From NCBI RefSeq assembly GCF_015732185.1, contig NZ_WIQM01000008.1, forward strand, positions 248,001-312,000: a stretch of DNA of 64,000 bases, written 5' to 3'. Numbering within the stretch: the first letter of the stretch is position 1; each line of letters begins with the position of its first letter. Shown here piece after piece: positions 5,127-64,000 of the stretch. The DNA comes from Pectinatus haikarae (GTDB lineage: Bacteria; Bacillota; Negativicutes; Selenomonadales; Selenomonadaceae). A program made the translations under genes and the position numbers. The notes beneath the pieces are model-generated. The model made no database searches, was not told the DNA's origin, and was given only the letters and a program-made list of their open reading frames with translations.

Positions 5127-6422
5127 TTATGAAACCTTTATTGGTTTAAGCTCTTTCATTCCCAAACCGTATGATAAAGCACCAATGAGGCACGCTATGC
5201 CTGAAAGTACTAGAGCTGGTATGAAATTTCCTGCGGAAGTTATGATATAACCGGTAATTATAGGTCCTAATATACCACCAATATTACCAGCACAATTTTG
5301 AATGCCTCCTAAAACGGACGTCATGTTTCTTGGTGCGACATCTCCGGGTAAAGACCATAATGCAGCTCCTGCGAATGCTAAACCTGCGTAAGAAAAACAC
5401 AATAATGCCATTATTGCGGCCGTCGACTCGATCAAACCTGCAAATGCCACAGATGTAGCGATGAACATTCCGGCAACAAGGTTTATTTTCCGTGCACGTG
5501 TTAAATTACCAGTGGTTTTATAGGTATGATCAGTGAACCAACCGCCGAACCATTGCACTAAAACACCAGAAAGAGGGGGCAGCATTGCCAGCCAACCCAT
5601 TGTGGTCATTTGCAGACCACGGTCATGTACCAGATATGTTGGAAACCATGTAACAAAAAAGTATATGGCATAGTTTAAGCAGAAAAATCCCAAGCACATT
5701 GCGCGTACATTTCTATATTTCAGCAATTGGTACCATTTCATAGGCTGGATAGTATCTATTCCTTCCTTTTTAGCCTGATGACTGCGAATGTAGTTTAATT
5801 CTACAGAATTTATGAACTTACTTCGTTCGGGGTCATTGTAGTAAGCAAGCCATGCAATGATCCATACAAGTCCTATACTGCCGCTTATAATGAAAGGCAG
5901 CTGCCAGCCATATGTGACGACCATCCATGTGACGAACGGCATAGTGAAAGCAGTGCCAAACTTGCTACCGCTGTCGAACAGTGCGGCTACTTTCCCACGC
6001 TCATTGTCAGGAAACCACTTTGCACATATTCCGGCATTGCAGGGATATACTCCGGATTCACCCATACCCATGAAAAGTCTGGCACTTATCAGATGACTGA
6101 CACTGCGAGCTCCTGCTGTTAAGGCGGTTGCGACTGACCACCAGAGAACGGCAATGGCCAGACACATTTTTTGACCAAGTTTATCAGCTAACCAGCCGGA
6201 AGGAATTTGACAAAGGGCATAGCTGAAAAAAAACATGGACATGATATATCCCATTTCTGAGGGACCTATATTTAAATCTTTCATCATGGCGGGGGCGGCC
6301 GCAGACATGACAGTTCTATCCAGATAATTTATAGCAATAACGCTCACCATGAGCAAAGCGACAACATATCTGGCCTTAGTTGGCTTAACGGCAGAGCTTT
6401 TTTCAGAATTTTGTAAAACCAT
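5127..6422 (-). CDS. MFS transporter, anion:cation symporter family
   Basis: Twelve-helix major facilitator protein of about 431 aa. The N-terminal region has the family hallmark NYLDRTVMSAA in TM1 and GWLADKLGQK in loop 2-3, as in hexuronate, glucarate and galactarate transporters (ACS family). The ATG at 6422 is chosen because aaggagg lies about 12 nt upstream; the longer open frame has no support. It probably imports a sugar acid or other organic anion with protons. No catabolic genes adjoin it, so the substrate is open. Two palindromes lie upstream (6502-6567). Confidence 0.87.
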   Translation of the reverse strand: MVLQNSEKSSAVKPTKARYVVALLMVSVIAINYLDRTVMSAAAPAMMKDLNIGPSEMGYIMSMFFFSYALCQIPSGWLADKLGQKMCLAIAVLWWSVATALTAGARSVSHLISARLFMGMGESGVYPCNAGICAKWFPDNERGKVAALFDSGSKFGTAFTMPFVTWMVVTYGWQLPFIISGSIGLVWIIAWLAYYNDPERSKFINSVELNYIRSHQAKKEGIDTIQPMKWYQLLKYRNVRAMCLGFFCLNYAIYFFVTWFPTYLVHDRGLQMTTMGWLAMLPPLSGVLVQWFGGWFTDHTYKTTGNLTRARKINLVAGMFIATSVAFAGLIESTAAIMALLCFSYAGLAFAGAALWSLPGDVAPRNMTSVLGGIQNCAGNIGGILGPIITGYIITSAGNFIPALVLSGIACLIGALSYGLGMKELKPIKVS

Positions 6423-7553: not shown

Positions 7554-8573
7554 TCAGCGATGATACGCCCGTTCATAAGCTTGCGGCAGATAACCAGCTA
7601 TATTATATTTCAATGCAGCCTGAAGGGCAAAGTAAGGGTCGCGCAGAAGCTTCCTGCCGAAAGCAATAAGATCAATATTATCGTTGTGCAGAGCCGCTTC
7701 AGCTATCTCCGGATCGTTTAAAAGACCGACAGCCATTACAGGAATTTGGCAGTGTTCTTTTATTACTTTTGCCAATGGAAGCTGATAACCCGGATAGGAG
7801 GCCACAGGATCGGGAAGCAGACCGCCTGAACTGACATGAACCAGATCAATGAGCTCTTTTACGGAATGCAGAATGTCGATCATCATATTTCCATTGATAC
7901 CGTTTTTATTATAATCGGAAGCGGACACTCTCAGCCATATGGGCTTTTTTTCGGGCCAGACACTGTGGATATTTTCCAGAACTTCCCGCAGCATCCGGAC
8001 ACGGTTTTCCAGGCAGCCTCCGTATTCGTCAGTGCGTTTATTCGTAAGCGGTGACAGAAATTCATGAAGCAGATAGCCGTGTGCCGCATGAATCTCAATG
8101 CCGTCAAAACCGGCTTTATCAGCGCGGGAGGCGGCCTTGCGGAAACTGTCAGCAATATCAGCTAATTGGATTTTTGTAAGCTCAGCGGGCTGCTGGTATT
8201 CATTGCTGAAGGCTAAGGCACTGGGAGCCAAAGGCTGCCCGCATGCAGACTGGCTTTTTCGGCCGGCATGGCTTATCTGGATAGCAATTTTTGCTCCCTG
8301 AGCGTGACACGCATCAACTACTTTTTTCAAGCCGGAGATTTGGTCATCGTTCCAAATGCCAAGATCATTATCTGAAATGCGCCCTATTGGGCTGACTCCT
8401 GTTGCCTCGACGATTATCAGTCCGGTGCCGCCAATAGCTCTCGATGCATAGTGCATGAGGTGAAAATCGGTGGCCTTGCCGTCAGCTGCCGCAGAATACA
8501 TACACATTGGCGGCATGACAATACGATTTTTTAAAGTCATATTTTTAACTTTGAATTGGTCAAATAGTTTCAT
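7554..8573 (-). CDS. Old Yellow Enzyme family NADH:flavin oxidoreductase (NamA/YqjM-like)
   Basis: FMN-dependent ene-reductase of about 339 aa, a TIM barrel reducing activated C=C bonds. Visible family features are LKNRIVMPPMCMYSA near the N-terminus (YqjM-type Cys in the MCMYSA region), the substrate-binding block HAGRKS, GFDGIEIHAAHGYLLHEFLSP, and a C-terminal GRKLLRDPYFALQ flavin-phosphate loop. The start at 8573 follows a modest gaaagtggtgat site, and it aligns with family N-termini; the 24 upstream in-frame residues do not. The natural substrate is unknown. Confidence 0.9.
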   Translation of the reverse strand: MKLFDQFKVKNMTLKNRIVMPPMCMYSAAADGKATDFHLMHYASRAIGGTGLIIVEATGVSPIGRISDNDLGIWNDDQISGLKKVVDACHAQGAKIAIQISHAGRKSQSACGQPLAPSALAFSNEYQQPAELTKIQLADIADSFRKAASRADKAGFDGIEIHAAHGYLLHEFLSPLTNKRTDEYGGCLENRVRMLREVLENIHSVWPEKKPIWLRVSASDYNKNGINGNMMIDILHSVKELIDLVHVSSGGLLPDPVASYPGYQLPLAKVIKEHCQIPVMAVGLLNDPEIAEAALHNDNIDLIAFGRKLLRDPYFALQAALKYNIAGYLPQAYERAYHR

Positions 8574-57766: not shown

Positions 57767-59701
57767 ATGAAATGGTTTGATACTGAAAACCGCTCAATTA
57801 AAATAATCAAGCTGCTGGAATATAAATCCGAATTTGCCATCGTCGATTTGAGCAGACGCCTTGGTGTCAGCACAAAGACAGTTCAAAATGATATCAGGGA
57901 TATCAATGCAGAACTAAAAGGCAGTGCATTGATTGACTTGAATCGGTCGGTTGCTAAGTTGTATATAACAGACTTCCCCCAATATCAAAAGCAGCGGAGC
58001 AGAATTGAACGAAGAAATTCAAATTTTGATTCACCGCAGATGCGAATGGCATTTATTGTCGATATGCTCATGAATACGGATTCGCCTTATCTCATTGATG
58101 AACTTGCTTATGCAATGAATATAAGCCGGTCTACGCTGATCAAAGATATGAACACACTTAAGGGGATTCTTCAAAATTATAATCTTACTATTCAGGGGCA
58201 GTCCAATATAGGTATCAGTTTGCTTGGTGAGGAGCTGAACCTGCGGTTTTTTGTGCTGGATAATAATTATAATATTATTTGCACTGAACCGGAGCTGCCG
58301 ATTGATATTATGGATATGATAAAAAAAGAGCTCAGTTCTCTTAAGCTTGACAAGATTGTCATTGAGCATTTTTTCCGTTATCTGACCTTGAGTGTTAACC
58401 GCAGCAGACAAGGTCATGCACTTATTTCTCTGGACGTAAAATATCAGGAGCTGGCTAATCATTATTACTATAAATTTTTGCAGAATAGTTTTGACAAGCT
58501 GGAATCAATGCTGGGGATTGTTCTTTCTGTAAATGAAAGATTGTTTTTGACTATACCGCTCATAAGCATGCGCACTCCCTATGATATTTCTTCACTTGAA
58601 TCAAATATAACGGTTTCTGATGATGTGCTGAAGATAACAGAGGAAATCATAGCCGCGATCAAGGAGAAAATGGATATAACATTGGATGAAAAAAATAGTG
58701 ATGTTTTGGATGAATTCGTCTATCACAATTATTTTCTGACAAACAGACTGCGGTATGGATTGACGATGCATAATCAAGGCAATGATGATATCAAGCAAAA
58801 ATATACGGTAGCATATCATATGGCATTGATTGCAAAAAAAGTCATAGAAAAAAGGATGCACTTGCGTATCCCGGAAGATGAAGTAGGTTTTTTGACAGCG
58901 TATTTTCAGATATTCCTGACCGAACAGGAGAGCAGTTCTAATGCATATAAAGTGGCATTGATATGCGGAACCGGCAGAGCAAGGGCAAAGCTCATAATGT
59001 CACAGCTCCAGAAAATTTTTGAACGCGGTACGGTTATTGATATTTTTATATACAATGAACAGCTGAGTGAAAGTGATCTGGAAGGATATGATCTGCTGAT
59101 ATCCACAGTAAAAACGGATATGAACAGACAGATTCCGGTGATTTTTATCAATGAAGTCGTTGATGAGGATTATCTGAAAAATAGTATAGATCGAATAAGG
59201 TATGCCCATCAGCTGCAAATCCCCTTGCTGCATGGCGTCCGGTCTATCGTGTTTAATCTCCTTACTGAAAAAAGAGTAATGGTATTGGGCAGCGATCTCA
59301 ACTATAGCGAGTGTGTGCATACAATGATTGCCGGTTTAATGGATGAAGGGCAGCTGGAAAAAGAGTTTTGGGGCAGGATACAGCAGCGTGAGGCGAAATC
59401 CTCGATGGTTTTGGATCATTGTGTGGCTTTTCCCCATGCCAGATATGACAGTGGGGGTGATATAGTAATTTCTCTCGGAATTATTCCTGACGGGCTGAAT
59501 GATGAACTGTATCCGGAGCTGAAAGTAATCTTTCTGGTAGCCGTTCCTGCAGATCCTAATGATGATGCTATTTTGGTAAAGATATATGATGAAATAATAA
59601 GTATGGCATCAAGTCAGAAGGTTGTTGAAGATATGTCAAAACTTACAAATTATAATGATATATTGATGTATTTTATTAAGGATTGTGATTTATTTAATTG
59701 A
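57767..59701 (+). CDS. PRD-domain PTS-responsive transcriptional regulator (BglG/MtlR type)
   Basis: 644 aa. N-terminal helix-turn-helix domains (IKIIKLLEYKSEFAIVDLSRRLGVSTKTVQNDI, about 12-44, and a second near 100-120) are followed by two PTS-regulation domains (~190-390), an EIIB-like segment with Cys400 in ICGTGRARA, and an EIIA(fructose/mannitol)-like domain with His557 in AFPHAR. Both phospho-acceptor positions are present. It lies 12 bp before gutM and probably activates the glucitol PTS operon. Start after gaggggaaaggag. Confidence 0.92.
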   Translation: MKWFDTENRSIKIIKLLEYKSEFAIVDLSRRLGVSTKTVQNDIRDINAELKGSALIDLNRSVAKLYITDFPQYQKQRSRIERRNSNFDSPQMRMAFIVDMLMNTDSPYLIDELAYAMNISRSTLIKDMNTLKGILQNYNLTIQGQSNIGISLLGEELNLRFFVLDNNYNIICTEPELPIDIMDMIKKELSSLKLDKIVIEHFFRYLTLSVNRSRQGHALISLDVKYQELANHYYYKFLQNSFDKLESMLGIVLSVNERLFLTIPLISMRTPYDISSLESNITVSDDVLKITEEIIAAIKEKMDITLDEKNSDVLDEFVYHNYFLTNRLRYGLTMHNQGNDDIKQKYTVAYHMALIAKKVIEKRMHLRIPEDEVGFLTAYFQIFLTEQESSSNAYKVALICGTGRARAKLIMSQLQKIFERGTVIDIFIYNEQLSESDLEGYDLLISTVKTDMNRQIPVIFINEVVDEDYLKNSIDRIRYAHQLQIPLLHGVRSIVFNLLTEKRVMVLGSDLNYSECVHTMIAGLMDEGQLEKEFWGRIQQREAKSSMVLDHCVAFPHARYDSGGDIVISLGIIPDGLNDELYPELKVIFLVAVPADPNDDAILVKIYDEIISMASSQKVVEDMSKLTNYNDILMYFIKDCDLFN

Positions 59702-59713
59702 GGAGGGGTTTTC

Positions 59714-60175
59714 ATGAATACTATGGCTATTATAATTTTTGGTTTTTTTGCTTTTGTGCTCCAGTATATACTGACCTTTCTGCAAATGAATAAGTTTACC
59801 AAACATTACCGTGAATTCAGGCGGGAAGGCAGGGTCGCTATAGGGAGGTACAGCGGTGTTGTAAGAGCCGGTGTGATAGTGCTCTTTCTGATTGACGGAA
59901 AAGGTGTGATAAAAAAAGGTAAATATGTTCAGGGTGTGACAGTGTTCGCCGGTTACAAAGATATCAATAAATCATTTACAGGTAAATATGTGGGCGGTCT
60001 GACACAGGAAGACTGTAAGGCAGCGCATTATTCCAAGTCGCTGACACAGGCTGTTATGGATGCCCGCAATAATTACAATATAATTACTTCCGGCGGAACT
60101 TTGCCGGAAAGAAAAAGTCCTTTCGGACGACTTCTGGATATGTTTAAATTCAGATCCGTAAAAAAAGACAACTAA
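59714..60175 (+). CDS. gutM: Glucitol operon activator protein GutM
   Basis: 153 aa. One N-terminal transmembrane helix (about 4-24) is followed by a soluble domain with GVVRAGVIVLFLIDGKGVI (about 51-69). Size and position directly before srlA fit GutM/SrlM. RBS gaggaggggt. Its biochemical role is not clear even in well-studied operons; co-occurrence with the PRD regulator is typical of Firmicutes. Confidence 0.87.
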   Translation: MNTMAIIIFGFFAFVLQYILTFLQMNKFTKHYREFRREGRVAIGRYSGVVRAGVIVLFLIDGKGVIKKGKYVQGVTVFAGYKDINKSFTGKYVGGLTQEDCKAAHYSKSLTQAVMDARNNYNIITSGGTLPERKSPFGRLLDMFKFRSVKKDN

Positions 60176-60192: not shown

Positions 60193-60741
60193 ATGGATTT
60201 TGCAGTAAATTTAGCAGCAGGATTTATGAACCTGTTTACTTTGGGCGCAGAAACTTTTGTTTCCTGGGTAACCGGCATAGTTCCGAAGGTTTTGCTATTA
60301 TTGATTTTTATGAACTCTCTTATCGCTTTTATCGGTCAGGACAAGATCAATAGTTTTGCTAAAGTATGTTCTAAAAATGTATTACTCGCTTACGGCGTGC
60401 TGCCGTTTCTTTCCGCATTTATGCTGGGCAATCCGATGGCTCTTTCCATGGGTAAGTTCTTGCCGGAACGCATGAAACCAAGCTATTACGCATCGGCGGC
60501 CTATCATTGCCATACCAACAGCGGTATTTTCCCGCATATCAATGTCGGAGAATTGTTCATCTGGCTGGGGATCGCCAACGGGATAACAACATTGGGACTT
60601 GATGCTACACCGCTGGCATTAAGATATTTGCTTTTAGGTTTGGTAATGAATTTTTTTGCAGGCTGGATAACAGATTTTACTACTAAAATTGTAATGAAAC
60701 AGCAAAAAATAGAACTCAGTAATAAATTGAAAACAGAATAG
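60193..60741 (+). CDS. srlA: PTS glucitol/sorbitol transporter subunit IIC (SrlA)
   Basis: 182-aa integral membrane protein. Family segments include FMNLFTLGAETFVSWVTGIVPK (about 13-34), NPMALSMGKFLPE (about 80) and YHCHTNSGIFPHINVGELF (about 100-118). RBS ggaggaaaag. It forms the membrane channel with the IIBC protein. Confidence 0.95.
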   Translation: MDFAVNLAAGFMNLFTLGAETFVSWVTGIVPKVLLLLIFMNSLIAFIGQDKINSFAKVCSKNVLLAYGVLPFLSAFMLGNPMALSMGKFLPERMKPSYYASAAYHCHTNSGIFPHINVGELFIWLGIANGITTLGLDATPLALRYLLLGLVMNFFAGWITDFTTKIVMKQQKIELSNKLKTE

Positions 60742-60756: not shown

Positions 60757-61770
60757 ATGATGACAGAATATAGGGCAATTAAAATAGAAAAAGGCAGCGC
60801 CGGTTTTGGCGGACCATTGACAGTTAAACCGCAGGATGGCAAAGATGTTCTTTTGTATATCACGGCCGGTGGGGCTAAACCTGAAATTGCGGACAAAATA
60901 GAACAGCTGACGGGCTGCCGCGTCATAAATGGTTTTAAAACTTCCGTGCCGGAAACAGAAATTTTTCTGGTTATTGTTGATTGCGGAGGCACTTTGCGAT
61001 GCGGCATTTATCCGCAGAAGCGTATCCCGACCATCAATCTTAACCCTGTGGGCAAGAGCGGTCCTCTGGCTAAATATATAACAGAGGACATTTATGTATC
61101 AGGCGTTACACTGGATAACATTAAGCCGGCAGACAGTGCTGCGGTGACAGAAGAAGCTGCGGAAGTTCCGGCTGAAAGCGAACGCAAATTTAAATATTCG
61201 GCAGATAAAAAAGTTTCTCAGACTATGGGTGAAACATCATCCAATACCTTTATCCAAAAAATCGGCATGGGAGCCGGAAAAGTCGTTTCCATATTCTATC
61301 AGGCCGGCAGGGATGCCGTCAATTCTATAATCAACACCATTTTGCCTTTTATGGGATTTGTCGCCATGCTTATCGGTATTATCAACGGTTCCGGTTTTGG
61401 TGACTGGTTTGCCAATTTGCTGGTGCCATTGGCCGGAAATATGATAGGATTGGTAATATTGGGTTTTATCTGTTCGCTGCCGTTTCTTTCACCGTTGCTT
61501 GGTCCCGGAGGAGTCATTGCACAAATAATTGGTACACTGATAGGTGTGGAAATAGGTAAGGGCCATATTGATCCGAATCTAGCATTACCCGCACTGATGG
61601 CAATTAATACACAAAATGCCTGCGATTTTATTCCGGTAGGGCTTGGCCTTGCCGAAGCAGAGGCCGAAACGGTAGAAGTCGGGGTACCGGCAGTTCTTTA
61701 TTCACGCTTCATCATAGGCGTGCCGCGTGTTTTAGTCGGCTGGCTGTTTAGTTTTGGTATGTATAAATAA
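60757..61770 (+). CDS. srlE: PTS glucitol/sorbitol transporter subunit IIB-C (SrlE)
   Basis: 337 aa. The IIB domain (1-120) has the phospho-Cys region [20 protein letters not shown] (around 75-95) and [16 protein letters not shown] intact. The C-terminal IIC part (~180-337) has helices with GWLFSFGMY at the end. Both Cys residues of the motif are present. Adjacent ATGs at 60757 and 60760 follow ggaaggag. This subunit appears normal, unlike the EIIA encoded next. Confidence 0.95.
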
Positions 61771-61858: not shown

Positions 61859-62224
61859 ATGACAATGAAAGTAATTTACAGCAACAAAATTATTAATGCA
61901 GGAAAAGATGTCACCGCTTTTGGTGAAGAAATGGTAATCCTCTTTGGTGACAATGCACCGGATACACTGAAAGATTATTGTTATACCATTCCCATTGTTC
62001 AGACCGTAAAAACGATCAAACCAGGGCAGTTCTTTTCAATAGACGGAGAAAAATTTGAAATACTGCATGTGGGTGAGCTGGCTGAAAAAAATCTCAATGG
62101 ACTCGGACATTTAACGGTAAATTTCACTGCTGAAAAGGACAATAGTCTGCCGGGAGCCATCATTGTGGAAAAAAAATCTCATAGACCTATCAAAATAGGT
62201 ACTGTTATTGAGATAATAGAATAA
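61859..62224 (+). CDS. srlB: PTS glucitol/sorbitol IIA-like protein (SrlB), phospho-His missing
   Basis: 121 aa, clearly SrlB-like: VIYSNKI at the start, NAPDTLKDYCY, GLGHLTVNF and the final IKIGTVIEIIE. In E. coli SrlB the phospho-acceptor is His43 in YCFIHCHG. Here the same position reads YCYTIPIV: Ile44 and Ile46 replace both His. Remaining histidines are elsewhere (LHVGE, GLGHL, KSHRP). So it should not accept phosphate in the normal way. Several ATGs (61856, 61859, 61865) precede the body; 61859 is best spaced from agga. Overlaps the HPr-like gene by one base. Confidence 0.9.
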   Translation: MTMKVIYSNKIINAGKDVTAFGEEMVILFGDNAPDTLKDYCYTIPIVQTVKTIKPGQFFSIDGEKFEILHVGELAEKNLNGLGHLTVNFTAEKDNSLPGAIIVEKKSHRPIKIGTVIEIIE

Positions 62225-62487
62225 TGATCACCCGCAGAATGACTATTGAAAATCCTCTCGGACTGCACGCGGCTTATGCAGCCAGACTGGCCGCTTTTGC
62301 CAGAAAATCGGGCAGCAGTATTTTTTTGCGTAAAAAAGGGAAAAAATTAGCTCGCGCGGCAGATATGGTGGCTGTTCTCGGCATGCTGGTCAGAGCTGGA
62401 GATGAGTTGGAAATTCTGGTAGACGGGCTTGATGAAATTGAAGATATGCAGAAATTTATGGAGCTTATTATCAGTTTGGACAGGTAA
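62224..62487 (+). CDS. HPr-like phosphocarrier protein, divergent
   Basis: 87 aa, HPr fold. His15 is kept in NPLGLHA, but the conserved Arg-Pro after it is replaced by Ala-Tyr (HAAYAAR). The regulatory Ser46 position aligns with Asp47 in RAADMVAVLG, so HPr kinase could not act and the residue may mimic phosphorylation. The ATG overlaps the SrlB stop (TAATG), so translation is coupled. Probably a dedicated carrier for this operon rather than the general HPr. Confidence 0.88.
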   Translation: MITRRMTIENPLGLHAAYAARLAAFARKSGSSIFLRKKGKKLARAADMVAVLGMLVRAGDELEILVDGLDEIEDMQKFMELIISLDR

Positions 62488-62508: not shown

Positions 62509-63321
62509 ATGAGCTGGTTAAATATTGAAGATAAAGTAGTTGTGGTTACAGGAGGTGCATCAGGTATAGGTAAAGCGGTAACCGAAGCTTTTCTTGCGCA
62601 GGGCAGCAAAGTAGTGGTCGCTGATATGAATCCGGCTGCACCGGTAATAGACGGAATGAATGAAGACAATTTTCTTTATGCAGTGGCTGACGTTACAAAA
62701 GCGGCATCTGTTAAATCCATGATAGATAAGGCTGTAGAACGGTTCGGCAGTGTAGATGTGATGGTGAATAACGCAGGAATAAACATACCTCGTCTTTTGG
62801 TGGATCCAAAGGATGAAGGCGGTCAGTATGAACTGGACGAAAAGGTCTGGGATCTGGTCTGCAATGTCAATATGAAGGGCGTTTTCTTTTGTGCCCAGGC
62901 AGCGGCACGGCAGATGATAAAACAGGGCGGCGGAGTCATCATTAATATGTCATCCGAAAGCGGATTGGAAGGTTCTGAAGGACAGAGCGTTTATGCTGCT
63001 ACTAAAAATGCTCTTAATTCACTCACAAGATCATGGTGCAAAGAGCTGGGCAAGCATAATATACGTGTGGTAGGCATAGCTCCCGGTATTATGGAAGCCA
63101 CGGGTCTGCGCACAATAAAGTATGAAACCGCACTTGCGTATACAAGGAATATCACGGTTGATCAATTGCGGGCTGGTTATTCAAAAACCTCAACAACACC
63201 TTTAGGCCGCTCCGGCAAACTGAGTGAAGTAGCAGATGCAGTATGTTTTATGAGCAGCGACAGAGCCGGTTATGTACACGGTGTAACACTTAATATAGCC
63301 GGAGGAAAGACCAGAGGCTGA
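62509..63321 (+). CDS. Sorbitol-6-phosphate 2-dehydrogenase (SDR family)
   Basis: 270 aa short-chain dehydrogenase. It has TGGASGIG (about 16-23), NNAGINIP, catalytic Ser in INMSSESG and YAATK (Tyr/Lys about 164-168). The C-terminal block RNITVDQLRAGYSKTS to AGGKTRG closely resembles SorD-type sorbitol-6-phosphate dehydrogenases, converting glucitol-6-phosphate to fructose-6-phosphate with NAD. RBS gaaagaagg. Position after the PTS genes supports the role. Confidence 0.92.
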   Translation: MSWLNIEDKVVVVTGGASGIGKAVTEAFLAQGSKVVVADMNPAAPVIDGMNEDNFLYAVADVTKAASVKSMIDKAVERFGSVDVMVNNAGINIPRLLVDPKDEGGQYELDEKVWDLVCNVNMKGVFFCAQAAARQMIKQGGGVIINMSSESGLEGSEGQSVYAATKNALNSLTRSWCKELGKHNIRVVGIAPGIMEATGLRTIKYETALAYTRNITVDQLRAGYSKTSTTPLGRSGKLSEVADAVCFMSSDRAGYVHGVTLNIAGGKTRG

Positions 63322-63343: not shown

Positions 63344-64000
63344 ATGCAATTATTGATCGACGATGCAAATATTGTCGAAATAAAAAAATTAGCGGCTTTT
63401 ATGCCGATAGACGGGGTAACAACAAACCCTTCTATTTTAGCCAAAAACGGAAAAGCCCCATTTTCCGTACTGCGTGAAATACGTGATTTCCTTGGAGAAA
63501 AAGCAATGCTGCATGTTCAGGCAGTTGCCGCTGATGCTGAAGGAATAGTTGAGGACGCACATCGTATTCAGAGGGAATTGGGAGAAAATACATATATTAA
63601 AATTCCTGTGGTCGATGAAGGCCTTAAGGCAATCAAGATGCTGAAAAAGGAAGGAGCCAATATTACGGCAACGGCCATTTACACACAAATGCAAGCCTTC
63701 TTAGCAGGCAAGGCAGGTGCGGATTATGCTGCTCCTTATGTTAACCGGATAGATAATCTTGGCGCTGACGGCATTCGTACGGCTAAGGCAATACATGATA
63801 TTTTCAAGAAAAACCATCTGCATACGGAAGTATTGGCTGCCAGTTTTAAAAATTCACAGCAGGTACTGGCATTGTGTGAATATGGTGTGGGCGCAGCCAC
63901 TGTTGGACCGTCTGTGCTGCGGGGGCTTTTAAAAAATGATTCTGTAGCGGCTGCGGTAAAAGCTTTTACTGATGATTTTGAAAATCTTTGCGGCTCGGGA
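63344..64000 (+). CDS. Fructose-6-phosphate aldolase / transaldolase-like (FSA/TalC), 3' end beyond window
   Basis: 219 codons are visible and the frame is open to the edge; FSA proteins are usually about 215-220 aa, so it is nearly complete. MQLLIDDANI at the start, DGVTTNPSILAK (about 23-34), the Schiff-base Lys86 in YIKIPVV, and TATAIYTQMQAFLAG with the PYVNRIDN block are family hallmarks. Start after gaaagggg. Following a fructose-6-phosphate-forming dehydrogenase, it would either cleave fructose-6-phosphate to dihydroxyacetone and glyceraldehyde-3-phosphate or act as a transaldolase. Confidence 0.9.
   Translation, partial: MQLLIDDANIVEIKKLAAFMPIDGVTTNPSILAKNGKAPFSVLREIRDFLGEKAMLHVQAVAADAEGIVEDAHRIQRELGENTYIKIPVVDEGLKAIKMLKKEGANITATAIYTQMQAFLAGKAGADYAAPYVNRIDNLGADGIRTAKAIHDIFKKNHLHTEVLAASFKNSQQVLALCEYGVGAATVGPSVLRGLLKNDSVAAAVKAFTDDFENLCGSG

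Follow-up and report, generated by a model that had tools for sequence, protein, structure and literature searches.

A His43-less glucitol-type EIIA with a retained GH-motif histidine and an unusual HPr-like protein in a putative sorbitol PTS operon of Pectinatus haikarae

The analysed stretch of DNA, hereafter the window, comprises 64,000 nucleotides of the Pectinatus haikarae genome, and the genes of interest lie close to its end, all on the + strand. The first of them (57767..59701) encodes a GutR-like regulator with HTH, Mga, PRD and EIIA(Mtl/Fru) domains (PF08279, PF05043, PF00874, PF00359); its EIIA domain retains the histidine in the motif VAFPHAR, and a regulator gene of the same kind was found in other PRD-type gut operons. 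It is followed by GutM (59714..60175; PF06923, 91 bits), glucitol/sorbitol IIC (60193..60741; NF049923, 287.7 bits, cut-off 150) and glucitol/sorbitol IIBC (60757..61770; NF049924, 515.1 bits, cut-off 400). The first-pass annotation had called IIB and IIC normal, in agreement with scores above the NCBIfam equivalog cut-offs for both. Thereafter come a glucitol-type EIIA (EIIA-Gut, 61865..62224), an HPr-like protein (62224..62487), an SDR assigned as sorbitol-6-phosphate dehydrogenase (62509..63321; NF004817, 418.5 bits, cut-off 304) and an open reading frame of the transaldolase / fructose-6-phosphate aldolase family, which starts at 63344 and continues beyond the window end at 64000 (L013 7345-8025). 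The latter is homologous to the aldolase adjoining gut operons of Ligilactobacillus, Aerococcus and Enterococcus. The set of a PRD-type gut operon, i.e., PRD regulator, GutM, IIC, IIBC, IIA and sorbitol-6-phosphate dehydrogenase, was thus complete in the window. By its gene content the locus looks like a PRD-regulated sorbitol PTS operon of the gut type, an ordinary sorbitol PTS that would use His82 of its EIIA.

The start of the EIIA gene best supported by homology was the ATG at 61865, in frame with position 61859 chosen in the first-pass annotation, and the stop codon occupies 62222-62224. The protein scored 113 bits against PF03829 (cut-off 25) and 120.2 bits against the narrower TIGR00849, below its cut-off of 189.55. 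In alignment with SrlB taken from an E. coli record, His43 and His45 of SrlB correspond to Ile42 and Ile44 within the motif KDYCYTIPIVQT; the earlier reading of YCYTIPIV, with isoleucine in place of both SrlB histidines, therefore holds. His45 is variable across the EIIA-Gut family anyway, while His43 is what we take to be the usually cited phospho-histidine of glucitol EIIA. What had been overlooked is His82 of the GH motif, the counterpart of His83 in the LGH of SrlB. Both proteins belong to the same Pfam family; of the two, SrlB alone has His43 and His45. An AlphaFold2 model of the window EIIA, made from a two-row alignment, reached a pLDDT of 44, at which the position of His82 is not readable.

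Histidines were compared across the family by reading 117 loci, 115 of which had one EIIA each. Five were from the P. haikarae genome itself, one from P. frisingensis (L073) and eight from plasmid records hand-picked among 55; the rest were the remaining matches from 60 relatives and 398 genomes of the phylum. Two partial matches (G007:C86 and G432:C6) and one below the cut-off (G281:C1) were set aside. Together with typed E. coli SrlB and a typed fragment of 2f9h, which we take to be the solved EIIA-Gut of Enterococcus faecalis, this made 117 EIIA-Gut sequences. The histidine of the GH motif, mostly LGH, was present in every one of them (117/117), and His43 in 104, corresponding to 103 of the 115 locus sequences. 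The 12 locus proteins without His43 carried isoleucine (nine), leucine (two) or glutamine (one) at the site. The GH-motif histidine was the one histidine common to all 12, and in four of them (L107, L113, L114, L143) it was the sole histidine of the protein. The last of these, L143, corresponds to the GutA protein of Pediococcus parvulus 2.6, with its single histidine in LGH. His43 is likewise absent from 2f9h, which has glutamine at that site and retains the C-terminal histidine. It resembles the window EIIA in family, in the absence of His43 and in that C-terminal histidine; it differs in its glutamine, and stands outside our tree. A paper from 2014 proposed that family members are phosphorylated on the invariant C-terminal histidine of 2f9h (PMC4256011).

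Taken together, the invariance of the GH-motif histidine, the single-histidine GutA, the published proposal and the His43-less 2f9h lead us to regard His82 as the putative phospho-acceptor of the window EIIA. The first-pass annotation had described an EIIA without its phospho-histidine, which is probably wrong, since the histidine present in 117/117 sequences is the one proposed in print (PMC4256011) to be phosphorylated. Among the options it had listed, transfer through another histidine is the best supported, with His82 of the GH motif as that residue, and its description of the HPr-like residues stands. Because His43 was found in 103 of the 115 locus sequences, and in 40 of the 41 orphan sequences described below, it matters in most family members. 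Its absence from 11 further locus sequences besides that of the window is the reason why, in our view, it does not define EIIA-Gut; as part of the best explanation we propose that its role is accessory and that the EIIA can do without it. The literature yielded no phosphotransfer result on any EIIA lacking His43, and at the level of titles and abstract openings no determination of the SrlB phosphorylation site was found.

The survey gave some further observations. Orphan EIIA-Gut genes, i.e., those without neighbouring IIB or IIC, were common (41 of 115, a count in which loci at contig edges, e.g., L249, can mimic orphans and which includes L223, as its IIC was unrecognised). Nearly all had His43 (40/41), and all had the GH-motif histidine. 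Examples are found at 7996-8352 (-) of L010 and 8157-8507 (-) of L011. One orphan lies upstream of sucC-sucD in four Pectinatus genomes, and another within an operon of a sugar kinase and a dehydrogenase (L010, L173). Genome G045 contains two copies of a gut-type PTS (L178, 1082-2995; L182, 4449-6360) with IIB and IIC as separate genes; their EIIAs read CLILTPT, without His43, and retain the GH-motif histidine.

A tree of IIC and IIBC from 68 operons was built by a quick method, with SH-aLRT support, no bootstrap and the EIIA sequences not included. In this tree the eight operons having both a PRD regulator and isoleucine at site 43 formed one clade (SH-aLRT 100), consisting of two from Pectinatus, those of Ligilactobacillus salivarius, Aerococcus tenax, Enterococcus faecium and P. 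parvulus, and two from further genomes of the phylum. The operon of Priestia megaterium NCT-2, which has isoleucine and a SorC-type regulator, adjoins the clade with support 95. One change is sufficient to account for the state of site 43 on this tree, from which L178 and L182 are absent owing to their split IIBC, so that the separateness of their loss was judged by motif and gene make-up alone. The His43-bearing L153 was set aside from the PRD group, as its PRD match lies 2.6 kb downstream of the EIIA and the regulator at the head of the operon is of the SorC type, and the PRD label of L170 on the tree refers to a short match on the opposite strand. Since the eight operons form one clade, and its six members from outside Pectinatus have no HPr-like gene over the stretch read, the loss of His43 appears to be old in the PRD operon lineage and not tied to the HPr-like gene. 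Compensation of the lost histidine by the HPr-like protein was considered and ruled out, as six of the eight PRD-type operons were without both over the stretch read. The neighbours of the Pectinatus operon on the tree were mostly operons from lactic acid bacteria, whereas the remaining Pectinatus gut operons lay far away; this placement suggests acquisition by horizontal transfer.

Within the genus, the operon, the motif CYTIPIV and the residues of the HPr-like protein were identical in kind in P. frisingensis (G002, L073, L076), the sole match in a scan of genome contigs (NZ_WIQU01000065.1). Between the two species the EIIA is 74% and the HPr-like protein 63% identical, and pN was far below pS in both (0.16 vs 0.74 for the EIIA and 0.23 vs 0.85 for the HPr-like protein, with synonymous sites saturated). 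The altered residues are thus not due to chance or sequencing error, and the ratios point to purifying selection on the EIIA. Elsewhere the P. haikarae genome encodes four more EIIA-Gut proteins. Each has His43, and the genes of two are orphans with neither IIB nor IIC nearby.

The ATG of the HPr-like gene at 62224 overlaps the EIIA stop codon by one base. The protein belongs to the HPr family by profile, passing PF00381 (57.7 bits, cut-off 23) and narrowly missing TIGR01003 (46.1 bits, cut-off 47.9). Its motif GLHAAYAA keeps His15 and has Ala for Arg17 and Tyr for Pro18, and an aspartate occupies the Ser46 column; one extra loop residue before that site makes it Asp47 in the protein's own numbering. 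An off-by-one misreading of this aspartate was ruled out by the alignment. The first-pass annotation was right about these residues, and the protein is indeed unusual. The combination His15, Arg17, Pro18 and Ser46 was found in 39 of the 47 HPr sequences compared, and Ala, Tyr and Asp at the latter three sites in the two Pectinatus proteins only. With a two-row profile of these, strong matches among 380 genomes of the class were restricted to P. haikarae (175.6 bits) and P. frisingensis (171.5 bits), the next scoring 59.1. The survey of the class for the EIIA/HPr pair, proposed in the first-pass annotation, thus gave strong matches to the HPr-like partner in these two Pectinatus genomes only. 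Among the 398 phylum genomes, a set without the P. frisingensis genome, P. haikarae alone matched strongly (next 61.3). Five Pectinatus genomes were encountered, and two of them had the gene. No relatives of the HPr-like protein were found in plasmids and phages at E 1e-5, none of either protein in PHROGs and none of the EIIA in viral contigs.

The best-scoring solved relative was Crh. In the alignment Crh combines Gln15 with Ser46, and the window protein has the reverse, His15 with Asp46, in addition to lacking Arg17 and Pro18; it does not carry the Crh signature. Other divergent HPr-like proteins (L147, L257, L151) read GVLARQA and GISSRAA, without His15, and GIHAPLA, without Arg17. An HPr gene with ordinary active-site residues immediately follows EIIA-Gut in Priestia aryabhattai (L112, 5536-5799) and in G269 (L238, about 5684-5950), so an HPr gene in this position is no peculiarity of Pectinatus. 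A canonical ptsH-ptsI pair is present in the P. haikarae genome, in which one EI was found. Neither PF07475 nor TIGR00679 matched an HPr kinase there, and both were likewise silent on the Bacillus subtilis control, a genome which has the kinase.

R17A and S46D in E. coli HPr are reported to reduce binding to E. coli MtlR (PMC6763467, PMC5320558). Mutation of Arg17 reportedly impairs HPr towards EI, and S46D lowers its phosphoacceptor activity by a factor of about 2000 (PMC5320558, citing earlier work); S46D in B. subtilis HPr results in permanent catabolite repression (PMC4574613). With Ala17 and Asp46, the HPr-like protein is probably a poor substrate of EI. It may be accessory, perhaps regulatory, a role we assign with low certainty, and the chances seem about even that it acts as a modulator of either the regulator or the EIIA and stays outside the main phosphate flow. 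The reduced binding of both mutants to MtlR speaks against a simple regulator-binding role, though MtlR is a regulator of another kind. A dedicated phosphocarrier for the EIIA, with His15 phosphorylated despite Ala17 and Asp46, would be compatible with the explanation preferred below, and the kept His15, the overlap with the EIIA gene, the conservation in two species and the ordinary HPr genes after EIIA-Gut in P. aryabhattai and G269 all favour it; we nevertheless find it doubtful, given that EI phosphorylates model HPrs poorly when Arg17 is changed and likewise when they carry S46D (PMC5320558) and that the genome has its canonical ptsH-ptsI pair with one EI found. Somewhat less probable still, and speculative, is a phosphomimetic, EI-refractory HPr private to the operon and made one-to-one with the EIIA, its Asp46 serving to lock or unlock the PRD regulator or the EIIA by sorbitol flux, as a mirror image of Crh.

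A comparable operon has been linked to sorbitol use. In one study, P. parvulus 2.6 ferments sorbitol, with very slow growth when it is the sole sugar, and strain 2.6NR, which is without the gut operon and differs further in being EPS-negative, leaves sorbitol untouched (PMC5723342). The gutFRMCBA operon of strain 2.6 shares with Pectinatus the regulator, GutM, IIC, IIBC, the His43-less EIIA and the sorbitol-6-phosphate dehydrogenase, and falls in the same clade of IIC and IIBC; Pectinatus differs in that the dehydrogenase follows the EIIA and the HPr-like gene is added. The statement that no glucitol PTS of this form had been described consequently fails for the EIIA, on account of GutA from this operon (PMC5723342) and likewise of 2f9h.

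The explanation we find likely overall is a sorbitol PTS working through His82 of its EIIA, with His43 lost once in the lineage and the HPr-like protein as an addition. Sequence, conservation, phylogeny and operon make-up are the observations behind it, and from them we infer a functional operon in which phosphate is carried by His82. Phosphate would pass from PEP to EI, HPr, His82 of the GH motif, the IIB cysteine and finally sorbitol. The loss of His43 would have taken place at or near the base of the PRD operon lineage, and the HPr-like protein would be an addition seen only in Pectinatus, its synthesis probably coupled to that of the EIIA through the translational overlap. It is unlikely that the EIIA is instead catalytically dead and structural, with IIB phosphorylated in trans by a His43-bearing EIIA-Gut from elsewhere: the genome does offer four such genes, two of them orphans, but the entire clade is without His43 and yet retains the GH histidine, the EIIA appears to be under purifying selection, and P. 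parvulus 2.6 has a like EIIA and uses sorbitol, GutA being the one EIIA considered (PMC5723342). The novel part of the Pectinatus operon is the HPr-like protein, a genuine but small novelty, while its His43-less EIIA belongs to an existing operon lineage. We consider it very improbable that the EIIA and the HPr-like protein form a regulatory pair which senses the PTS state and controls the PRD regulator, phosphate reaching IIB via the regulator's EIIA domain or another route, since in spite of the weak phosphotransfer predicted from the HPr-like residues and the VAFPHAR retained in the regulator, six of the eight PRD-type operons have a like EIIA and no HPr-like gene over the stretch read, and a transporter that receives its phosphate from the EIIA domain of a regulator is not known to us.

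The HPr-like protein may be viewed as a small natural experiment in what an HPr can do once Arg17 is gone and site 46 is permanently acidic. If the phosphomimetic reading were true, it would be an operon-private HPr with the regulatory state written into its own sequence. For the family as a whole, the survey indicates that the GH-motif histidine is a better candidate for the phosphorylation site than the usually cited His43, which would be dispensable in one operon lineage, and this has a bearing on the annotation of the EIIA-Gut family.
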